NCBI RefSeq assembly: GCF_023715885.1
Contig: NZ_JAMBOY010000003.1
Span: 558,001-622,000, forward strand
DNA: 64,000 nucleotides
From: Microbacterium hydrocarbonoxydans
GTDB lineage: Bacteria > Actinomycetota > Actinomycetes > Actinomycetales > Microbacteriaceae
Direction of reading: 5' to 3'
In this document: one piece after another, positions 54,612-64,000 of the stretch
Layout: every line of letters begins with the position of its first letter
How positions within the stretch are numbered: position 1 is the stretch's first letter
Program-made: the position numbers and the translations under genes
Notes under the pieces: generated by a model
Databases searched by the model: none
Told to the model about the DNA's origin: nothing
What the model saw: the letters and a program-made list of their open reading frames with translations, nothing else

Positions 54612-55555
54612 CTTCCGTCCTGTACGACGTCCCCGGTCCCAAGGCGATCCTCCGGAACCGCCTCCTCGGGGTGGCGACCGTCGTCGTCATCCTCGCCCTG
54701 CTCGGCTTCATCGTCTGGCGCTTCGCGGTCAGCGGGCAGTTCGACGCATCGCGCTGGTACGTCTTCACCTTCAGCGCCGTGTGGACGCAGATCTTCGGCG
54801 CCCTGGGGCGCACCCTCGCGGCATTCGCCCTCGCAGGTGTGCTGAGCCTCGTCGTCGGGTTCGTCCTCGCCATCGGTCGTCTGTCGGATCACGCGTGGAT
54901 CCGCGTGCCCGTGACCGTCGTCACCGAGGTCTTCCGCGCGGTTCCCGTGCTCGTGCTCATGATGCTGCTGTACTACGGACTGCCGACGGTCGGCGTCAAG
55001 ATGGAACCCTACTGGGCCGTCGTGATCGCCCTCATGGTCTACAACGGCTCCGTGCTCGCCGAGGTCATCCGCGCGGGCGTCGAGTCGCTGCCCCGTGGTC
55101 AGAAGGAGGCCGGCTACGCGATCGGCCTACGCAAGAGCGGCGTCATGCGCCTCATCCTCCTGCCGCAGGCGATCCGCGCCATGCTGCCCGTGATCGTCGC
55201 CCAGCTTGTCGTGACGCTCAAGGACACCGCGCTCGGGTTCATCATCACGTACCCCGAGTTGCTGTACTTCGCGAAGCAGCTGACCTCGCAGCAGGGACGC
55301 CCCGTGCTGCAGTCCGCGTTCGTGATCGGCGGCATCTACATCGTCATGTGCCTCATCCTGTCGGGCATCGCTCGCTGGCTGGAGATCCGCACCCGGCGGT
55401 CGCCCAAGCTCCGCGGAGGAGCAGGCGCACCCGGCGGCCCGAATGAGGGACCGGACCCTCGTCAGCACGAGGGTGGCACGAACACCGAGCTGATCGCCAT
55501 GCAACGCGGCGCAGGCAGGTTCGACGGCACGAGTACCGGCGCAGGCGGCGTCTGA
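54608..55555 (+). CDS. gluD: Amino-acid ABC permease (GluD-like)
   Basis: 315 residues. An extra N-terminal helix (~20-45), then the five-helix core with EAA loop GQKEAGYAIGLRKSGVMRLI; a hydrophilic C-terminal tail of ~50 residues rich in Gly/Arg/Pro, as in corynebacterial GluD. Pairs with GluC as the second permease subunit. Confidence 0.92.
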   Translation: MTSVLYDVPGPKAILRNRLLGVATVVVILALLGFIVWRFAVSGQFDASRWYVFTFSAVWTQIFGALGRTLAAFALAGVLSLVVGFVLAIGRLSDHAWIRVPVTVVTEVFRAVPVLVLMMLLYYGLPTVGVKMEPYWAVVIALMVYNGSVLAEVIRAGVESLPRGQKEAGYAIGLRKSGVMRLILLPQAIRAMLPVIVAQLVVTLKDTALGFIITYPELLYFAKQLTSQQGRPVLQSAFVIGGIYIVMCLILSGIARWLEIRTRRSPKLRGGAGAPGGPNEGPDPRQHEGGTNTELIAMQRGAGRFDGTSTGAGGV

Positions 55556-55574
55556 TCGCTTCGCCGCCCGCCGG

Positions 55575-55580
55575 TAGACT
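55575..55580 (+). promoter_or_regulatory. -10 hexamer for pheS-pheT
   Basis: TAGACT followed by 8 nt and the GTG at 55589; leaderless or nearly so. No T-box or attenuator-like structure fits in the 33-nt gap after gluD. Confidence 0.5.
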
Positions 55581-55588
55581 CGACTCTC

Positions 55589-56629
55589 GTGTCTGAGTCT
55601 CTCGAAATCACCCCGGAGGCGGTCGAAGCCGCTGTCGCGGCGGCGCTCGATGCCATCGCCGCGGCAGGCGACACCGCCGAGCTGAAAGCCGCCCGAGCGG
55701 CGCACGTCGCGGAGGGGTCGCCGCTCGCGGTGCTCAACGCCTCGATGCGTCAGGTCGCCCCCGAGAACAAGGCGGCGTTCGGCAAGCTCGTGGGGCAGGG
55801 ACGCGGCCGCGTGACCCAGGCCCTCGCCGCCAAGGAGTCGGAGCTGGCCGCCGCCGAGGTCGCGGCCCGGCTGGAGTCCGAGCGCGTCGACATCACCGCG
55901 GTCTCTTCGCGGTCGCGCGTCGGCGCCCGGCACCCGCTCACCCTGCTCAGCGAGCAGATCTCCGACATCTTCGTCGGCATGGGGTGGGAGATCGCCGAGG
56001 GCCCGGAGCTCGAGCACGAATGGTTCAACTTCGACGCGCTGAACTTCGACGTCGATCACCCCGCACGCCAGGAGCAGGACACGTTCTACGTCGACCCCAC
56101 TTCGCGTCACCTCGTCATGCGCACGCACACGAGTCCGGTGCAGGTGCGCTCGATGCTCGACCGCGACGTTCCGATCTACGTGCTCTGCCCCGGCCGCGTC
56201 TACCGGACCGACGAGTTCGACGCGACGCACCTGCCGGTGTTCACGCAGTTCGAGGGCCTCGTGATCGACAAGGGCATCTCGATGGCCCACCTGAAGGGCA
56301 CGCTCGACCACGTCGCGCGCCAACTCTTCGGCCCGGAGGCGAAGACCCGCTTCCGCACGAACTTCTTCCCGTTCACCGAGCCTTCGGCGGAGCTCGACCT
56401 GTGGCACCCGACCTTCAAGGGCGGCGCGCGCTGGATCGAGTGGGGCGGATGCGGCATGGTGAACCCGAACGTGCTGCGCGCGGCGGGGATCGACCCCGAC
56501 GTGTACAGCGGCTTCGCGTTCGGAATGGGCGTCGAGCGGGCACTCATGTTCCGCAGCGACGTGCAGGACATGCGCGACATGGCCGAGGGCGATGTCCGTT
56601 TCAGCGAGCAGTACGGGATGGTGGTGTGA
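55589..56629 (+). CDS. pheS: Phenylalanine-tRNA ligase alpha subunit
   Basis: 346 residues, GTG start. N-terminal coiled-coil arm (1-85), then class II catalytic core: HPLTLLSEQISDIFVGMGWEI, motif 2 region FRTNFFPFTEPSAELDLW and motif 3 GFAFGMGVERALM. Makes the alpha2-beta2 enzyme with PheT. The stop overlaps pheT's ATG by one base. Confidence 0.97.
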   Translation: MSESLEITPEAVEAAVAAALDAIAAAGDTAELKAARAAHVAEGSPLAVLNASMRQVAPENKAAFGKLVGQGRGRVTQALAAKESELAAAEVAARLESERVDITAVSSRSRVGARHPLTLLSEQISDIFVGMGWEIAEGPELEHEWFNFDALNFDVDHPARQEQDTFYVDPTSRHLVMRTHTSPVQVRSMLDRDVPIYVLCPGRVYRTDEFDATHLPVFTQFEGLVIDKGISMAHLKGTLDHVARQLFGPEAKTRFRTNFFPFTEPSAELDLWHPTFKGGARWIEWGGCGMVNPNVLRAAGIDPDVYSGFAFGMGVERALMFRSDVQDMRDMAEGDVRFSEQYGMVV

Positions 56630-59151
56630 TGCGCGTCCCGCTCTCGTGGCTGCGTGAATACGTCGATGTCGCAGCCGATGCGACGCCTGAGGACGTCCTC
56701 GCGGCGATGGTCTCCGTCGGGTTCGAGGAGGAGGACGTCCACCGCTTCGACCTGGAGGGTCCGATCGTCGTCGGCCAGGTGCTGTCGCTCGAGCCGGAAC
56801 CCCAGTCGAACGGCAAGACGATCAACTGGTGCCAGGTCGACGTCGGCGAGGAGAACGGCGGCGTCCGCGGCATCGTCTGCGGCGCGCACAACTTCGTCGT
56901 CGGCGATAAGGTCGTGGTGACGCTTCCCGGAGCCGTGCTGCCAGGGCCGTTCCCCATCGCGGCGCGCAAGACCTACGGGCATGTGTCCGACGGCATGATC
57001 GCCTCGGCGCGCGAACTCGGCCTTGGCGACGAGCACAACGGCATCCTCGTGCTGTCGGATCTCGGCATCGACGCCCCCGTCGGCGCCGACGCGATCGCGC
57101 TGCTCGGCCTCGACGACGTCGCGGTGGACGTGAACGTCACGCCCGACCGCGGCTACGCGTTCTCGGTGCGCGGCATCGCCCGCGAGTACTCGCACGCGAC
57201 GGGCGCGGAGTTCCGCGACCCCGCCGAGCGGGACTTCGCCGAGCTGCAGCCGGGAACCGGCCACACCGCCATCGTCGACGACTCCGCTCCCATCCGGGGC
57301 CGGGTCGGGGCGAGCGAGTTCGTCACTCGCGTCGTGCGCGGGGTCGACCCCTCGCGTCCTACGCCCCCGTGGATGATCGCGCGCCTGTCGCTCGCCGGCA
57401 TGCGGTCGCTCGGCGTGCTGATCGACATCACCAATTACGTGATGCTCGAGCTCGGCCAGCCCCTGCACGGCTACGACCTCGACAAGCTCCAGGGCGGCAT
57501 CACCGTCCGCCGCGCGACGCCCGGCGAGAAGATGACGACCCTCGACGGTCAGGAGCGGAAGCTCCACGTCGAGGACCTGCTCATCACCGACGACTCCGGC
57601 CCGATCGGCCTCGCCGGGGTGATGGGAGGCGGCACCACCGAGATGAGCGAGACGACCGCGAACGTGCTGATCGAGGCGGCGACCTTCGATCCCGTCACGA
57701 TCGCCCGCACGGCCCGCCGGCACAAGCTGCCGAGCGAGGCGTCCAAGCGCTTCGAGCGCGGTGTCGACCCGCTCGTGCCGTTCGTCGCGGCCCGTCGCGC
57801 CGCCGACCTCATGGTCGAGCTGGCCGGAGGAACGCTGACGGACGAGGGCGGCGCGCTCTTCGCCGAGATCTTCGTCGCCGAGATCGAGCTCCCCGCCGGC
57901 TTCGTGCAGGGGCTCATCGGCGTGGATTACACGGATGCCGAGATCACGGACGCTCTGACGATGATCGGAGCCGAGGTCGCTCCCGTGACGGGCGAGAGCG
58001 CGGAAGAAGCCGGCTGGACCGTCATCCCGCCGACCTGGCGTCCCGACATCACCGACAAGTGGTCGCTGGCCGAGGAGGTCGCGCGCATCCACGGGCTCGA
58101 CCGCATCCCGTCCGTGCTGCCCACCCCGCCGTCCGGGCGGGGTCTGACCGCCCACCAGCAGGGGCGTCGTCGCGTCGCGAACGCTCTCGCCGCGGCGGGT
58201 CTCGTCGAGACGCCGTCGTTCCCGTTCACGACGGAGGCGCAGAACGATCTGCACGGGTCGGCATCGGGTGAGCACCTGCCCAGCATCCGGCTGGCGAATC
58301 CGCTCGACGGGTCGGCGCCGTACCTGCGTCGCTCGCTCGTCCCCGGGCTGCTGCAGACCGCGCACCGCAACATCTCGCGCGGCCTGACCGATCTCGCGCT
58401 GTTCGAGACCGGTGTCGTCTTCCTTCCCGAGCCCGGCGTCACGTACGGCACCGACGAGGTGCCGCCGCTGGGTGAGCGTCCCTCGGACGAGACCCTCGCG
58501 CAACTGAACGCGTCGATCCCGCCGCAGCGCCGCCATGTCGCCGTGCTGCTCACCGGCAATACGGCGGCGCGCCAGCCGGGCCGCGCAGCAGAGCCCTCCG
58601 GCCTTTCGGAAGCGCTGGATGCCGTGCGCGTCATCGGCGAAGCGGCCGGCGTCACGATCGACGTCGCCCAGTCGCAGCGCGCGGCGCTGCACCCGGGACG
58701 CACGGGCCTGCTCACGGTCGACGGCGCCGAGGTCGGGTACGTGGGCGAGCTCCACCCCGACGTCGCCTCCGCCGCGGACCTGCCCGGCCGCGCGACCGTG
58801 GTCGAGCTCGACCTCGACGGCATCCTGTCGCTCGCCGGCGCGAAGTCCGTCGCGCCTTCGCTGTCGACGTTCCCTGCGGCGACGCAAGACGTCTCGCTCG
58901 TCGTGCCCGCCGAGGTGCCGGCGGGTGATGTTCGCGCAGCCCTCGTCGTGGGCGCGGGCGAGCTGCTCGAGTCCGTGCGTCTCGTCGACGACTACCGCGG
59001 CGACGGGCTGCCGGACGGTGCCAAGAGCCTCACGTTCGCGTTGCGTTTCCGCGCCGACGATCGCACGCTCACGGCCGCGGAGGCGACCGAGGCCAAGCTC
59101 GCGGGTGTCGCCGTCGCCACCGAGCGCTTCGGAGCTTCGATCCGGGACTGA
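56629..59151 (+). CDS. pheT: Phenylalanine-tRNA ligase beta subunit
   Basis: 840 residues, full length. Start MRVPLSWLREYVDV; tRNA-binding OB domain at ~40-150 (INWCQVDVG), B3/B4 editing domain (~215-390, VMGGGTTEMSETT), B5 domain (~405-480), catalytic-like core, and C-terminal anticodon-binding ferredoxin-like domain (~745-840, PAATQDVSLVVPAEVP and SLTFALRFRADDRTLT). Followed by a hairpin terminator. Confidence 0.97.
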   Translation: MRVPLSWLREYVDVAADATPEDVLAAMVSVGFEEEDVHRFDLEGPIVVGQVLSLEPEPQSNGKTINWCQVDVGEENGGVRGIVCGAHNFVVGDKVVVTLPGAVLPGPFPIAARKTYGHVSDGMIASARELGLGDEHNGILVLSDLGIDAPVGADAIALLGLDDVAVDVNVTPDRGYAFSVRGIAREYSHATGAEFRDPAERDFAELQPGTGHTAIVDDSAPIRGRVGASEFVTRVVRGVDPSRPTPPWMIARLSLAGMRSLGVLIDITNYVMLELGQPLHGYDLDKLQGGITVRRATPGEKMTTLDGQERKLHVEDLLITDDSGPIGLAGVMGGGTTEMSETTANVLIEAATFDPVTIARTARRHKLPSEASKRFERGVDPLVPFVAARRAADLMVELAGGTLTDEGGALFAEIFVAEIELPAGFVQGLIGVDYTDAEITDALTMIGAEVAPVTGESAEEAGWTVIPPTWRPDITDKWSLAEEVARIHGLDRIPSVLPTPPSGRGLTAHQQGRRRVANALAAAGLVETPSFPFTTEAQNDLHGSASGEHLPSIRLANPLDGSAPYLRRSLVPGLLQTAHRNISRGLTDLALFETGVVFLPEPGVTYGTDEVPPLGERPSDETLAQLNASIPPQRRHVAVLLTGNTAARQPGRAAEPSGLSEALDAVRVIGEAAGVTIDVAQSQRAALHPGRTGLLTVDGAEVGYVGELHPDVASAADLPGRATVVELDLDGILSLAGAKSVAPSLSTFPAATQDVSLVVPAEVPAGDVRAALVVGAGELLESVRLVDDYRGDGLPDGAKSLTFALRFRADDRTLTAAEATEAKLAGVAVATERFGASIRD

Positions 59152-59159
59152 ACCCGAGC

Positions 59160-59194
59160 CACGTGCCGTATCCCGACAGCGGATGCGGCACGTG
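59160..59194 (+). terminator. Terminator after pheT
   Basis: CACGTGCCG (59160-59168) pairs with CGGCACGTG (59186-59194); an inner TCC/GGA extends it. Loop about 7-17 nt, no T-run. It lies 8 nt after the pheT stop. Confidence 0.65.
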
Positions 59195-59212
59195 TTCGAG
59201 CCCGCTCACCGT

Positions 59213-59218
59213 TATCGT
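59213..59218 (+). promoter_or_regulatory. -10 hexamer for the DUF402 gene
   Basis: TATCGT followed by exactly 6 nt and the ATG at 59225. Leaderless arrangement. Confidence 0.45.
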
Positions 59219-59224
59219 GGCGAG

Positions 59225-59944
59225 ATGACGACAGTGAACCCGCACCCCACGCCGCCGTCGGTACCGCACGGTACGCGAGCGCTCGGTGAGCCGCCGTTTC
59301 TCGCGCCCGGGGATCAGATCGACTGGCACTACCGCAAGCCCGGGTGGCTGCGCGGCGAGCCGTCGACGATCACGCCGATGCGGGTCGTGCGAGACGACGA
59401 GCGCGGGCTCGTCGCCTGGCTCGCGCCGGGGACGGAGCAGGAGGGGCAGGGCGCGGCCGACGGGCAGCGTGTGCGCTCGGTTCCGCTCGAGCGGCGCTGG
59501 CTCGAACCGCGTCGGCGCATCGTCGAGGAGTGGGTGGGCAACGGCATCCTGCGGATCGCCCCGGCCGGTAAGCCCTGGTCGGTGTGGTTGTTCTGGAGCG
59601 GTGTCCGCGGCGACGACTGGACCCTCGCCGAGTGGTACGTGAACCTCGAGAACGCGCACCTGCGCACCGACCGCGAGACGTTCACCTCGGACCATGTGCT
59701 CGACGTCGAGATCGGGCGGGACGGACAGATCGTCATGGAGGACGAGGACGAGCTCGTAGCCGCCGTCGAACAGGGCCGCCTGGACGCCGACCAGGCCGCC
59801 GAGATCGAGGCGCACGCGGCGGCGGCCATCGCCTCGTTCACCGCCGGAGACTGGCCGTTCGACCCGGAGTGGATCGCCTGGCGCCCCGACTCCGCCTGGA
59901 CCGTGCCGGTTCTCGACGGGCTCGAGGACTTGCGCGTGCCCTGA
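59225..59944 (+). CDS. DUF402 (FomD-like) protein
   Basis: 239 residues with a DUF402 domain in the C-terminal half: WTLAEWYVNLENAHLRTDRE, then HVLDVEIGRDGQIVMEDEDEL and helical tail. The family includes nucleoside diphosphate phosphatases and the fosfomycin-pathway CMP-hydrolase FomD; conserved Tyr, Asp and Glu ligands for two metals are visible in those motifs. The substrate here is unknown and no biosynthetic cluster surrounds it. Confidence 0.85.
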   Translation: MTTVNPHPTPPSVPHGTRALGEPPFLAPGDQIDWHYRKPGWLRGEPSTITPMRVVRDDERGLVAWLAPGTEQEGQGAADGQRVRSVPLERRWLEPRRRIVEEWVGNGILRIAPAGKPWSVWLFWSGVRGDDWTLAEWYVNLENAHLRTDRETFTSDHVLDVEIGRDGQIVMEDEDELVAAVEQGRLDADQAAEIEAHAAAAIASFTAGDWPFDPEWIAWRPDSAWTVPVLDGLEDLRVP

Positions 59945-60006
59945 CGAGCCTCCGCTGACAGCGGATGCCTCTTCCGTCGCGGCGAGGATGCTGATGACAT
60001 GAGTGC

Positions 60007-60996
60007 ATGACGGATGTACTGATCCTCGGCGGGACGGGATGGTTGTCGGGGCGCATCGCGCAACGCTGGCTGCTGTCGGGTGCGGCGGTGACCTGTCTCG
60101 CGCGAGGCGAGCGCCCGGCGCCCGACGGAGCGACGCTCGCGATCGGCAACCGGGACGATCCGGGCGCGTACGACGTCGTCTCGCGCACCGACTGGGATCA
60201 CGTCGTCGACATCTCGTCGCGAGCCGAACACGTGCGCGGGGCCGTCGACGCGCTCTGGGAGCGGGCGAGTCGCTGGACGTATGTCTCGTCGATGTCGGTC
60301 TACGCCGACGACATGACGATCGACGCCGACGAGACCGCGCCCCTCGTCGCTGCAGCCGCGTCCCGCGACGACGATTACGGTGCTCAGAAGGTCGCCGCTG
60401 AAAACACCGTTCGCGAGCTGAGGGACGACCGAACGCTGATCGTCCGGCCGGGGCTCATCGTCGGCGACGGCGATCCGAGCGATCGGTTCGGCTATTGGGC
60501 CGCCGCGTTCCTCCGGGCACACGACGAGTCCGTGCTCGTCCCGGTCACGAGCGGCCGGGAGGTGCAGGTCATCGACGCCGACGATCTCGCGCAGTTCGTC
60601 GTGACGACCACGGCCACGGGCGTCGTGAACGCCATCGGAGACCGGCATCCGTTCGCCGATGTGCTGTCGCTGTTCCGCGCCCGTGCGCGGCACGACGGGG
60701 AGGTGGTGGAGGCCGACGACGACTGGCTGGTGGCCCACGGCGTCGACTACTGGATGGGCGAGCGGTCGCTCCCGCTCTGGCTCCCCGCCGACATGCCGGG
60801 CTTCATGTGTCGCTCGAACGATCGCTATCGCGAGGCGGGCGGCGAGCTCCGACCTCTCGCCGACACCGTGGCGAGCGTGATCGCCGACGAGGACGAACGG
60901 GGCGTCGATCGCCCGCGGCGCGCCGGACTCACCCGCGACGACGAACTCGCCCTGCTGCGCCTCCTCGGCCCACACGGGCGGCGCGACGTCATCTGA
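60007..60996 (+). CDS. NAD-dependent epimerase/reductase-like protein
   Basis: 329 residues, extended short-chain dehydrogenase fold. Rossmann start TDVLILGGTGWLSGRIAQRW gives the GxxGxxG nucleotide loop; WTYVSSMSVYADDM has the Ser and Tyr of the active-site region, and DDDYGAQKVAAE supplies a YxxxK. Similar to CSP41/reductase-like actinobacterial proteins annotated as NAD-dependent epimerases. Reaction unknown. The ATG overlaps the stop of a three-codon frame ATG-AGT-GCA-TGA at 59999. Confidence 0.85.
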   Translation: MTDVLILGGTGWLSGRIAQRWLLSGAAVTCLARGERPAPDGATLAIGNRDDPGAYDVVSRTDWDHVVDISSRAEHVRGAVDALWERASRWTYVSSMSVYADDMTIDADETAPLVAAAASRDDDYGAQKVAAENTVRELRDDRTLIVRPGLIVGDGDPSDRFGYWAAAFLRAHDESVLVPVTSGREVQVIDADDLAQFVVTTTATGVVNAIGDRHPFADVLSLFRARARHDGEVVEADDDWLVAHGVDYWMGERSLPLWLPADMPGFMCRSNDRYREAGGELRPLADTVASVIADEDERGVDRPRRAGLTRDDELALLRLLGPHGRRDVI

Positions 60997-61030
60997 CCAC
61001 GCCGATTTGCGCGTGCCGCGGCGGCCACGC

Positions 61031-61036
61031 TATCGT
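61031..61036 (+). promoter_or_regulatory. -10 hexamer for the arginine-rich small ORF
   Basis: TATCGT followed by exactly 6 nt and the ATG at 61043, identical in form to the promoter of the DUF402 gene. Confidence 0.5.
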
Positions 61037-61042
61037 CGCGGC

Positions 61043-61126
61043 ATGCCTTCGGCCGCCATCGCCACCCTGACGCTCGCTCCGAGCGTCATCGCTGTGCGCC
61101 GACGCCGCGGCGGCCGCCGACTCTAG
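61043..61126 (+). CDS. 27-residue Arg-rich putative leader peptide of the arg operon
   Basis: Small ORF, ATG to TAG, 107 nt ahead of argC. The first 17 codons are ordinary (MPSAAIATLTLAP), then the peptide ends AVRRRRGGRRL: six Arg in eight positions (codons 19-22, 25, 26), two of them CGA. It has its own leaderless-type -10 and lies directly before arginine synthesis genes, the arrangement of an attenuation leader in which ribosomes would pause when charged tRNA-Arg is short. No homologue was checked; a chance ORF in GC-rich DNA remains possible. Confidence 0.55.
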   Translation: MPSAAIATLTLAPSVIAVRRRRGGRRL

Positions 61127-61152
61127 GCGACCCCGCGCTCCTGCCTGCCCGG

Positions 61153-61222
61153 CGGTCGAGTAACGGTGTCGCCGCCCCGGCCTCCGACACCACCCCCGAT
61201 TCCTCGAGGGGTCCGACCGTTA
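61153..61222 (+). promoter_or_regulatory. Alternative RNA pairings between the leader ORF and argC
   Basis: Pairing A: GGTGTCG (61165-61171) with CGACACC (61185-61191), a 7-bp hairpin. Pairing B: TAACGGT (61161-61167) with ACCGTTA (61216-61222). Pairing C: CGGTCG (61153-61158) with CGACCG (61214-61219). A and B share bases 61165-61167, so they exclude each other; B and C reach to within 11-14 nt of the argC ATG. This is the topology of an attenuator or translational switch, but folding was judged by eye only. Confidence 0.4.
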
Positions 61223-61226
61223 AGGT
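61221..61226 (+). promoter_or_regulatory. -10 hexamer for argC
   Basis: TAAGGT followed by exactly 6 nt and the ATG at 61233. The same bases contain AAGG, which could instead act as ribosome-binding site on a transcript from the upstream promoter at 61031. Confidence 0.45.
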
Positions 61227-61232
61227 AGAAGA

Positions 61233-62291
61233 ATGACGTATTCCGTCGCCGTCTCCGGCGCATCCGGCTACGCGGGCGGCGAGATCCTGCGCCTCCTGGC
61301 CGCTCATCCCGACATCGAGATCCGCACCGTCACGGCGCACTCGAACGCCGGGCAGCCGCTCGTCCAGCACCAGCCCCACCTGCGCTCCCTCGCGCACCTG
61401 ACTCTGCAGGACACGACCCCCGAGGTCCTCGCCGGGCACGACATCGTCTTCCTCGCGCTGCCGCACGGACAGTCGGGCCAGTACACCGACGCGCTCGGAG
61501 ACACGCCGCTCGTCATCGACGCCGGCGCGGACCACCGGCTCACGGCGCAGGGCGCCTGGGACGCGTTCTACGGCGGAGCCTTCCACGACGCCTGGACCTA
61601 CGGCGTGCCCGAGCTGCTGGTCGGAGGAGTCAAGCAGCGCGAGAATCTGCGGGGCGCGACGAGGATCGCGGCGCCCGGCTGCAACGCCTCGACCGTGAGT
61701 CTGAGCCTCGCACCGGGCGTCGCCGCCGGTGTCATCGACCCCGGCGACATCGTGTCCGTGCTCGCGGTCGGTCCCTCCGGCGCGGGCAAGAGCCTCAAGA
61801 CCAATCTGCTCGCGAGCGAGATCCTCGGCTCCGCCAACCCGTATGCCGTAGGGGGCACGCACCGGCACATCCCCGAGATCCGGCAGGCGCTCGCCGCGGC
61901 ATCCGGTCGCGAGGCCACCGACTCCGGCATCCGCATCTCGTTCACGCCCGTGCTCGTGCCGATGGCGCGCGGCATCCTCGCGACATCGACGGCGCCGATC
62001 GTCGAGGGCGTCACCGACGCCGAGATCCGCGCAGCCTGGGAGTCCGCGTACGGCGACGAGACCTTCGTGCAGCTGCTGCCCGCCGGGGAGTTCCCCCGCA
62101 CCGCCGACGTCCTCGGCGCGAACACCGCGCTCATGGGACTCGCGATCGACCGGGCCGCGAACCGCGTGACCGTCGTGACGGCCGTCGACAATCTCGTCAA
62201 GGGCACCGCCGGCGCCGCCGTGCAATCCATGAACCTCGCGCTGGGGCTCCCCGAGTCCCGCGCCCTCTCAGTGAACGGAGTCGCGCCGTGA
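61233..62291 (+). CDS. argC: N-acetyl-gamma-glutamyl-phosphate reductase
   Basis: Third step of arginine synthesis: NADPH reduction of N-acetylglutamyl phosphate. 352 residues. GASGYAGGE (9-17) binds NADP, the active-site Cys150 is in [10 protein letters not shown], and [10 protein letters not shown] holds the catalytic His. Leads argC-argJ-argB; overlaps argJ in GTGA. Confidence 0.97.
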
Positions 62292-63445
62292 GCGTCACCG
62301 CCCCCGCAGGATTCGAGGCGGCCGGAGTCGCCGCCGGACTCAAGTCGACCGGCAAGCCGGATGTCGCCGTCGTCGTCAACCGCGGGCCCCGCAAGGTGGG
62401 CGCCGCTGTGTTCACCAGCAACCGGGCGAAGGCCAACCCCATCATCTGGTCGCAGCAGGCGGTCGCCGATCGGGTGGTCGAGGCCGTGGTGCTCAACTCC
62501 GGCGGCGCGAACTGCTTCACCGGAAGCTTCGGATTCCAGACCACGCATCAGACCGCCGAGAAGGCCGCCGAGCTGCTGGGCGTCAGCGCGGGCGACGTGC
62601 TCATCTGCTCGACCGGCCTCATCGGCGTGGGTGACGAGGTGTTCCGGGGCAAGGTGCTCGCTGGTACGGAGCAGGCCATCGGGGAGCTCTCAGCGGACGG
62701 CGGAGAGCTCGCGGCCGAGGCCATCATGACCACCGACAGCGTGTCGAAGACCGCGGTCGTGAGCCGCGACGGATGGACGATCGGCGGCATGGCCAAGGGC
62801 GCGGGCATGCTCGCGCCCGGGCTCGCGACGATGCTCGTCGTCATCACGACGGATGCCGTGCTCGAGCCCCTCGAGGCCGACGCCGCGCTGCGGGCTGCGA
62901 CCGGTCGCACGTTCGATCGCCTCGACTCGGACGGGTGCATGTCGACCAACGATCAGGTGACGCTCCTCGCCAACGGGGCCTCGGGTATCGCGCCCGCTCT
63001 CGACGACTTCGGCGCCGCGCTCCGCGAGCTCTGTCAGGAGCTCGCCGTGAAGCTGCAGGGCGACGCCGAGGGGGCGAGCCACGACATCACGATCGAGGTG
63101 CAGCATGCCGCCTCGGAGTCGGATGCCGTCGAGGTCGGCCGTTCCGTCGCCCGCAACAACCTCTTCAAGGCCGCGATCTTCGGCAACGACCCCAACTGGG
63201 GCCGAGTGCTCGCGGCGATCGGCACGACGAACGCGCAGTTCGACCCGTACGACGTGGACGTGTGGATGAACGGCGTCCGTGTGTGCAGCGAGGGCGGCCC
63301 CGACCGTCCGCGCGAGGAGGTCGACCTGACCCCGCGGGCCACGCACCTCGTCATCGACCTCAAGGTCGGCGACGAGACGGCGACGATCCTCACCAACGAC
63401 CTCACCCACGACTACGTGCACGAGAACAGCGCCTACGCCTCATGA
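62288..63445 (+). CDS. argJ: Glutamate N-acetyltransferase / amino-acid acetyltransferase
   Basis: Recycles the acetyl group from N-acetylornithine to glutamate. 385 residues, GTG start. Self-cleavage should occur between Ala180 and Thr181 in [14 protein letters not shown], Thr181 becoming the N-terminal nucleophile of the beta chain. Other motifs: [30 protein letters not shown]. Its presence implies the acetyl-cycle form of the pathway. Overlaps argB (ATGA). Confidence 0.96.
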
Positions 63446-64000
63446 CCGACATCCAGGACACCACGCCGGACGTCGCCGCCGTGAAGGCGTCGACGCTCAT
63501 CGAATCCCTGCCGTGGCTGAAGAAGTTCCGCGACCAGATCGTCGTCGTCAAGTACGGCGGCAACGCGATGGTCTCGGACGAGCTGCAGGAGGCTTTCGCG
63601 CAGGACATCGCGTATCTGCGCTACGTCGGCGTGCTGCCGGTCGTCGTGCACGGCGGCGGGCCGCAGATCTCGAACATGCTCGAGCGCCTCGAGATCCCCA
63701 GCGAGTTCAAGGGCGGCTACCGCGTCACGAACACGGAGGCCATCAGTGTCGTGCGCATGGTGCTCACCGGACAGGTGAACCCGCAGCTCGTGTCGAAGAT
63801 CAACTCGCACGGTCCGATCGCGACCGGCCTCAGCGGGGAGGACGCCGGTCTCTTCGGAGGCCGCCGCCGCGGGGTCGTCATCGACGGAGAGGAGATCGAC
63901 CTCGGTCGAGTCGGCGACGTCGTACAGGTCGATCCCACCCCGGTGCTCGACCACCTCGCCGCCGGACGGGTCCCCGTGGTGTCGAGCATCGCGCCGGACC
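63442..64000 (+). CDS. argB: Acetylglutamate kinase, 5' part
   Basis: Second step of arginine synthesis and usual target of arginine feedback. 186 codons are visible before the window ends. [10 protein letters not shown] is the phosphate-binding Lys-Gly-Gly motif, [11 protein letters not shown] binds acetylglutamate, and [21 protein letters not shown] and GEDAGLF follow. The N-terminal extension ([15 protein letters not shown]) resembles the helix that mediates arginine inhibition in hexameric enzymes, so feedback sensitivity is likely. Confidence 0.95.

Follow-up and report, generated by a model that had tools for sequence, protein, structure and literature searches.

The stretch of DNA analysed here, called the window throughout, comprises 64,000 nucleotides from Microbacterium hydrocarbonoxydans and contains argC (NCBIfam TIGR01850), the first gene of a presumed operon argC-argJ-argB-argD-argF-argH. 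Downstream of argC, argJ, argD, argF, and argH were also identified by NCBIfam, and argB was assigned from its position and translation only. Upstream of argC lies a short ORF of the leaderless type that is rich in Arg codons (hereafter, uORF), together with its promoter elements and several segments with the potential for pairing in the RNA:

61004..61009, + strand: GATTTG, -35-region element of the leader promoter (GATT[TGC]G is conserved in relatives)
61031..61036, + strand: TATCGT, -10 element, arranged as TANNNT-N6-ATG with the uORF ATG at 61043
61043..61126, + strand: leaderless-type, Arg-rich leader ORF (uORF), 27 sense codons MPSAAIATLTLAPSVIAVRRRRGGRRL followed by the TAG stop at 61124-61126
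61097..61108, + strand: first Arg cluster, CGC CGA CGC CGC, the proposed sensing codons
61115..61120, + strand: last Arg pair, CGC CGA, of which CGA (61118-61120) begins 8 nt before R2
61126..61134, + strand: R2, GGCGACCCC, 5' arm of the main helix; its first base is the last base of the uORF stop codon
61161..61167, + strand: TAACGGT, 5' arm of the second helix, overlapping R3; in the window, no other 7-bp helix of the R3 -9..+5 segment scores better
61165..61173, + strand: R3, GGTGTCGCC, 3' arm of the main helix, pairing with R2 and co-varying across genera
61216..61222, + strand: R4, ACCGTTA, 3' side of the second helix, in contact with the Shine-Dalgarno (SD) element of argC
61222..61225, + strand: AAGG, SD-like element of argC, touched by the 3' end of R4
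61233..62291, + strand: argC

The initial annotation had described a 27-codon ORF preceded by TATCGT-N6-ATG and ending with six Arg residues, two of them encoded by CGA, and all of these are indeed present in the sequence: six of the last nine residues are Arg, with CGA at 61100 and 61118. A spacer separates the uORF from argC (ATG at 61233) as was also described, but its length is 106 nt instead of 107 nt. The promoter arrangement TATCGT-N6-ATG alone is not rare, with 8 sites in the genome. A strict core pattern was found in the same genome at argC and at one other place only; the latter lies opposite the end of a different ORF, on the antisense strand, has no Arg-rich ORF, and was discarded. 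Also, an Rfam covariance-model search of positions 55000-64000, including T-box and riboswitch models, gave no match at E up to 5.

As for the neighbouring genes, a 329-codon ORF is located between pheT and argC (60007-60996); no NCBIfam match was obtained for it at 1e-10, and, going by the look of its translation, it may encode a nucleotide-sugar epimerase-like protein. Elsewhere in the same genome, argG appears leaderless (TAGACT-N7-ATG; L355:1452-1467), and no Arg-rich uORF was found upstream of it; the leader may therefore act on argCJBDFH only.

Conservation of the leader ORF and its arginine codons

For comparison, we assembled 110 regions upstream of argC, namely the window, the 29 best argC matches in a sample of 198 genomes of the genus (194 with argC), and the best 80 of a second genome collection. 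Removal of 8 duplicates and 1 incomplete region left 101 distinct loci (the Microbacterium set), in which close relatives are favoured because the loci were chosen as the best argC matches. Most of the records are Microbacterium, with a few other family members or MAGs and one titled Frigoribacterium. The last of these (L096, Frigoribacterium sp. JB110) groups with the Microbacterium rows on the argC tree and is possibly misnamed.

A counterpart of the uORF, with 4-8 Arg among its last 16 residues, was found upstream of argC in all of the 101 loci. The lack of conservation in close relatives, which the initial annotation had named as a refuting result, thus did not occur. The spacing of the uORF from the -10 element is N6 in 96 loci and N7 in the other 5, where N6 or N7 was required by our calling rule and the 5' end is a predicted one, and the -10 element itself takes the form of 16 different TANNNT hexamers. 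In each of the 96 N6 loci, furthermore, exactly one TANNNT-N6-ATG exists 45-150 nt upstream of R2, and it is always in the frame of the Arg codons; conservation of the frame and of the Arg run in Microbacteriaceae, which had been named as a check, is borne out. Further upstream, GATT[TGC]G occurs 39-40 nt before the uORF ATG in 93/101 loci of the Microbacterium set and outside that set 19/43 loci have it, at a distance of 38-40 nt in 17 cases. Judging from these counts, the arrangement as a whole is not a product of chance.

The word GGCG is found near the uORF stop in 144/145 leader loci, and R2 was located by this word with an in-frame CGN 4-11 nt upstream, R3 then being taken as its best complement. 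Starting from the codon in which R2 begins, the codon two places upstream is Arg in 143/143 loci and CGA in 142/143, and this CGA lies 8 nt before R2 in 101/101 loci of the Microbacterium set and in 41/42 of the others, with variation in the neighbouring codons and the stop position. The presence of a nearby Arg codon is in part by construction, given the rule for R2, but the choice of CGA and its exact place are not; among 126 Arg codons counted in four of the window's ORFs, 5 are CGA. The codon just before CGA is CGC throughout the Microbacterium set (101/101), and in other genera it is Arg in 27 and GAG in 10 of 42 loci. A further cluster of Arg is evident at codons -9, -8, and -7 relative to R2, with 77, 90, and 92 of 101 loci in the Microbacterium set and 31, 29, and 26 of 42 loci in other genera.

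Decoding of CGA by inosine is slow. In the genome, 30 of 45 tRNA matches were inspected together with the tRNAs next to them; the tRNA-Arg anticodons found were ACG, CCG, CCT, and TCT. With tRNA-Arg(ACG) available and no UCG tRNA in this set, CGA is probably read by inosine.

The uORF varies in length (20-43 aa) and in its N-terminal sequence, with mainly the Arg positions being conserved, and its codon positions exhibited no bias of the coding type. A functional peptide is therefore unlikely; the absence of such a bias fits the sensing of codons, yet provides no independent proof of translation.

RNA pairings between the leader ORF and argC

The pairing between R2 and R3 is the best supported helix of the leader, though it was not named in the initial annotation. 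Since R2 was found by GGCG and R3 as its complement, the first four pairs follow from the search rule and are uninformative; pairs 5-9 vary, and bases 5-9 of R2 co-vary with R3. In a few loci the arms were placed otherwise: R2 by hand in L099, L108, L091, and G246, and R3 with the help of preset words in G205, G246, L099, and L108; in L054, R3 is misplaced. The counts on helices leave out three genomes, namely G212 (an ORF but no GGCG), G300 (a near copy), and G217.

When R2 and R3 were re-paired between species, none of 20000 re-pairings reached the score of the own pairing in 59 spread loci, irrespective of whether R3 was fixed or searched freely. When the set was reduced to 57 loci with less than 75% identity, 1/20000 re-pairings did so, and the values were 1/20000 in 8 very diverged loci and 867/20000 in 4. 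A control with the reversed partner gave 350 (57 loci), 2438 (8 loci), and 5803 (4 loci) of 20000; because the control is itself low in the 57 loci, these swap tests are somewhat liberal, yet this is far from explaining the signal of R2:R3. In single sequences, the pairing is modestly above that of shuffles (median p 0.043; 34/59 below 0.05). Changes that keep the pairing are exemplified by GGCGTCGTC/GACGACGCC in G241, GGCGTCGAG/CTCGCCGCC with one mismatch in G231, and GGCGGGCCG/CGGTCCGCC with one G-U in L118. The distance from R2 to R3 is not tied to a phase, as the three phases are represented by 73, 43, and 28 of 144 loci. In some loci the TAG is replaced, by TCG in certain relatives, and the ORF continues; the spacing between CGA and GGCG is unchanged there, which indicates that R2 is kept as RNA and not on account of the preceding stop. 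The minimum-energy fold of the window prefers a local hairpin, and R2:R3 is absent from it.

Two pairings had been noted initially, GGTGTCG/CGACACC (61165-61171 and 61185-61191) and TAACGGT/ACCGTTA. Both do exist in the window, and they are mutually exclusive, as claimed, because GGTGTCG and TAACGGT share the GGT at 61165-61167. In the comparison, however, their fates differ: the latter fits a second, more weakly supported helix (R3'-R4), and there is little comparative support for the former. When the R3 -9..+5 segment was paired with the argC-proximal stretch, none of 20000 swaps matched the own 7-bp helices (61 loci), and in the 57 thinned loci 24/20000 did so, with 8367/20000 in the reversed-partner control; in the most diverged loci the excess was not significant (2917/20000 in 8 loci and 4142/20000 in 4 loci). 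A strong R3'-R4 is seen in 71/143 loci, in which R4 ends 10-49 nt before argC. R3 alone against the downstream sequence, the class to which GGTGTCG/CGACACC belongs, gave no excess at 6 bp (3213/20000) or 7 bp (1667/20000) and a weak one at 8 bp (104/20000).

The folding of the segment from R3 to the SD is near chance (mean z -0.70; 50/143 below -1). Sequestration of the SD by folding was considered and set aside, as the predicted accessibility changed little and inconsistently (0.512 with R2 free and 0.482 with R2 covered; 21/70 up and 18/70 down). A pairing of CGCC in the Arg codons with GGCG of R2, which we read by eye, is lost in the GAG-CGA-CGA-TAG type and hence not general. Between positions 60950 and 61400 of the window, no site resembling a U-tract terminator was found, and the stretch from R3 to the SD averages 46% C, 24% G, and 15% T (143 loci). 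In terms of an amino-acid attenuator, the idea put forward initially holds for the frame and the Arg run, but the form known from trp and his, in which transcription is terminated, is not supported here given the absence of a U-tract terminator in the window.

Distribution of the leader and of ArgR

The family was sampled with 80 loci (one each from 74 other genera and six second genomes), and 40 loci were taken from other families of the order. The leader ORF was found in 45/80 family loci, a count made after three spurious calls had been removed (two within the family and one beyond it) and G217, with an N9 spacing seen by eye, had been added; G217 is thus counted as leader-bearing and is absent from the helix and codon counts. 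Excluded from the list are G201 and G225, where the best call was the C-terminus of pheT, and G416, an artefact with 3 Arg that overlaps argC. By genus, the leader is present in 39/74, or in 39/75 once the leader-free G224 is included. Among the other families, no Arg-rich leader ORF was found in the 40 loci, one of which had just 233 nt upstream; the best call contained 3 Arg and overlapped argC.

On a single-gene tree of argC (90 rows), the leader trait is clustered and needs 12 changes, a distribution that would be compatible with, but is not proof of, an early origin followed by repeated loss. In one genome, G212 (L131), a leader-like ORF with ERR at its end lies 234 nt before argC and R2 is lost; this is possibly a decaying attenuator. 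The distance from the pheT stop to argC is 191-345 nt in genera with the leader (15/39) and 5-250 nt in those without it (20/35, where pheT could be reached; a single one exceeds 145 nt). Several uORFs have a GTG-GAC start and an RRL-GATPLR-like end, which resemble the pheT C-terminus VDDYRG...RFGATLRD, and the leader may descend from the 3' end of pheT. We also noticed by eye that three genera without a leader ORF (L249, L270, and L274; upstream loci L122, L143, and L147 of G201, G225, and G229) carry a GGGGCG or GGCGAC-like stretch where pheT ends or close by, and a GTCGCC stretch plus a AGGGTAGA/AGGGTGGA/AAAGGTGGAA element ahead of argC.

ArgR controls arg genes at the ARG box as a protein repressor acting on DNA. 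Such control and the leader described here have in common the start of the operon and the expected physiological signal, but the C-terminal domain of ArgR was found in 0/74 genomes of the family (72 other genera and 2 Microbacterium), while it was present in 6/6 genomes of other families. In the genome studied here, no match to this domain was obtained, and the N-terminal domain gave three weak matches below the cut-off (E 0.3-0.5). In other families of the order, TGTATAGTTATGC-like argC starts are frequent, which we take to resemble a fusion of promoter and ARG box. In 36/75 other genera the uORF is missing and ArgR, in those tested for it, was not found either, and the leader is therefore not obligatory.

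The start of argC itself falls into two architectures. An SD-like element, defined as AAGG, GAGG, or GGAG within the last 16 nt, precedes argC in 38/39 genera with the uORF versus 11/35 without it; conversely, TANNNT-N6/7 directly before argC is found in 25/35 genera without the uORF, in 22/35 without any SD. This contrast has a Fisher p of 9e-10, ignoring relatedness. In 12/39 uORF genera, argC has the SD-like element and no TANNNT at N6/7. All of the 101 loci in the Microbacterium set have TANNNT at N6/7 before argC (TAAGGT in the window), which could double as a -10 element.

Possible action of the leader and its significance

Comparison among the loci shows a fixed order, in which a leaderless-type ORF start, two clusters of Arg codons, a co-varying R2:R3, and an SD-led argC follow one another. 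With a frame-locked ORF, Arg clusters, a fixed spacing between CGA and R2, and a co-varying helix, arginine sensing by the ribosome is very likely. Its specific form we hold with less assurance: a leaderless attenuator of argCJBDFH in which the ribosome reads Arg codons with classical wiring would be somewhat favoured, where we infer the polarity and the level of the output.

The ribosome would start at the RNA 5' end without a leader and, when arginyl-tRNA is scarce, stall at the first group of Arg codons, which lies 18-29 nt ahead of R2. R2 would then be left free to pair with R3, and R2:R3 would block the overlapping R3'-R4 hairpin beside the ribosome-binding site of argC, allowing expression of argCJBDFH. 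With plentiful arginine, the ribosome would reach the slow CGA and the stop and cover R2, so that R3'-R4 could form and argC would be initiated poorly; loss of the untranslated transcript to Rho might be a second effect. The unit of sensing would be the Arg codon and not the peptide, which outside Arg has no sign of conservation. The ribosome footprint lengths used in this scheme are those of common knowledge. We prefer the classical wiring because both Arg clusters are given a task, the first one freeing R2 and the dwell at CGA/stop covering it.

Wiring in the opposite sense is an unlikely alternative: R2:R3 would be the OFF state, and a ribosome stalled with CGA in its A site would hold R2 in the entry channel and turn argC on. 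It would account for the CGA-to-R2 distance being the most rigid feature of the leader while the stop moves, and R2:R3 is indeed better supported than R3'-R4, but the first Arg cluster would be left unexplained, since a stall there leaves R2 free, and in the window R3 is not followed by a terminator tail. To a similarly small degree, we consider that the uORF ribosome and the helices might determine whether Rho can reach the C-rich stretch that separates R3 from argC, the output being polarity of transcription and not initiation. Salmonella speF orf34 works partly in this way according to passages of PMC6386406. A rho gene is present, and the base composition of the stretch, with C nearly twice as frequent as G, and the missing U-tract terminator in the window would be consistent with such gating; the start of R3 is, however, 45-54 nt from argC in 38/42 loci of other genera. 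Such a length is short for the loading of Rho.

An independent leaderless promoter for argC, TAAGGT-N6-ATG, with the upstream ORF on a separate short RNA, is improbable: although TANNNT at argC is universal in the Microbacterium set, 12/39 uORF genera have the SD-like element without it, most uORF-free genera show TANNNT without an SD, and TAAGGT is nearly fixed, whereas the middle of the uORF -10 element varies freely. Nascent-peptide arrest in response to free arginine, as with the arginine attenuator peptide of fungi, is most improbable despite the Arg-rich C-terminus of the uORF, given that its N-terminus and length vary, that mainly Arg positions are conserved, and that codon positions are unbiased.

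Attenuators that depend on an amino-acid leader are of textbook status. Like the attenuators of trp, his, and ilvB (ilvB-II in Corynebacterium, from passages of PMC10272879), the argC leader has regulatory codons and, beside R2:R3, a putative second helix that would exclude it by sharing an arm, but it differs from them in having no U-tract terminator in the window, a leaderless-type start, and the end of the putative second helix near the argC ribosome-binding site. Leaderless polycysteine sORF attenuators in mycobacteria are known from the title of Canestrari et al. 2020 (cited in PMC9094748), and translation attenuation of cysteine genes in M. smegmatis from passages of PMC13236596. As far as these sources go, the mycobacterial sORFs are likewise actinobacterial, leaderless, short, and rich in the regulated amino acid; the argC leader shares with them the -10 element 6-7 nt before the start, has Arg instead of the Cys run, adds a co-varying helix and a near-invariant codon at a fixed distance, and belongs to another family, in which ArgR was not found. 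Consecutive Arg codons that sense arginine and redirect mRNA folding are also described in passages on Salmonella speF orf34 (PMC6386406), which is, however, an SD-led ORF of 34 codons at an ornithine decarboxylase gene of a gamma-proteobacterium, with Rho and RNase G in its output. Similarly, S. aureus rbfL, as outlined in part of PMC13009471, involves rare Arg codons in a uORF, arginine limitation, and a translational output, but there the stall represses by covering the RBS, and the target is a biofilm regulator and not arginine synthesis. According to a 2005 survey of actinobacteria, conserved RNA regulatory structures were not observed there ahead of arginine operons (PMC1262725). Among the matches listed in open-access literature, with few subscription journals and no preprints, titles and abstract openings gave no description that we recognised as an Arg leader before argC in Actinobacteria.

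The argC leader is an attenuator candidate shared by many genera, all from a family where the search for ArgR gave no match, and in some members of that family an RNA switch might have taken the place of a repressor in nature. The near-invariant CGA poses the question of whether the slow codon itself, beyond the amino acid, is selected at one position of the ribosome. Tentatively, the family could have lost the arginine repressor, and much of it might now use a terminator-free, leaderless RNA switch tuned by the slow CGA, a codon timer that depends on decoding by inosine.
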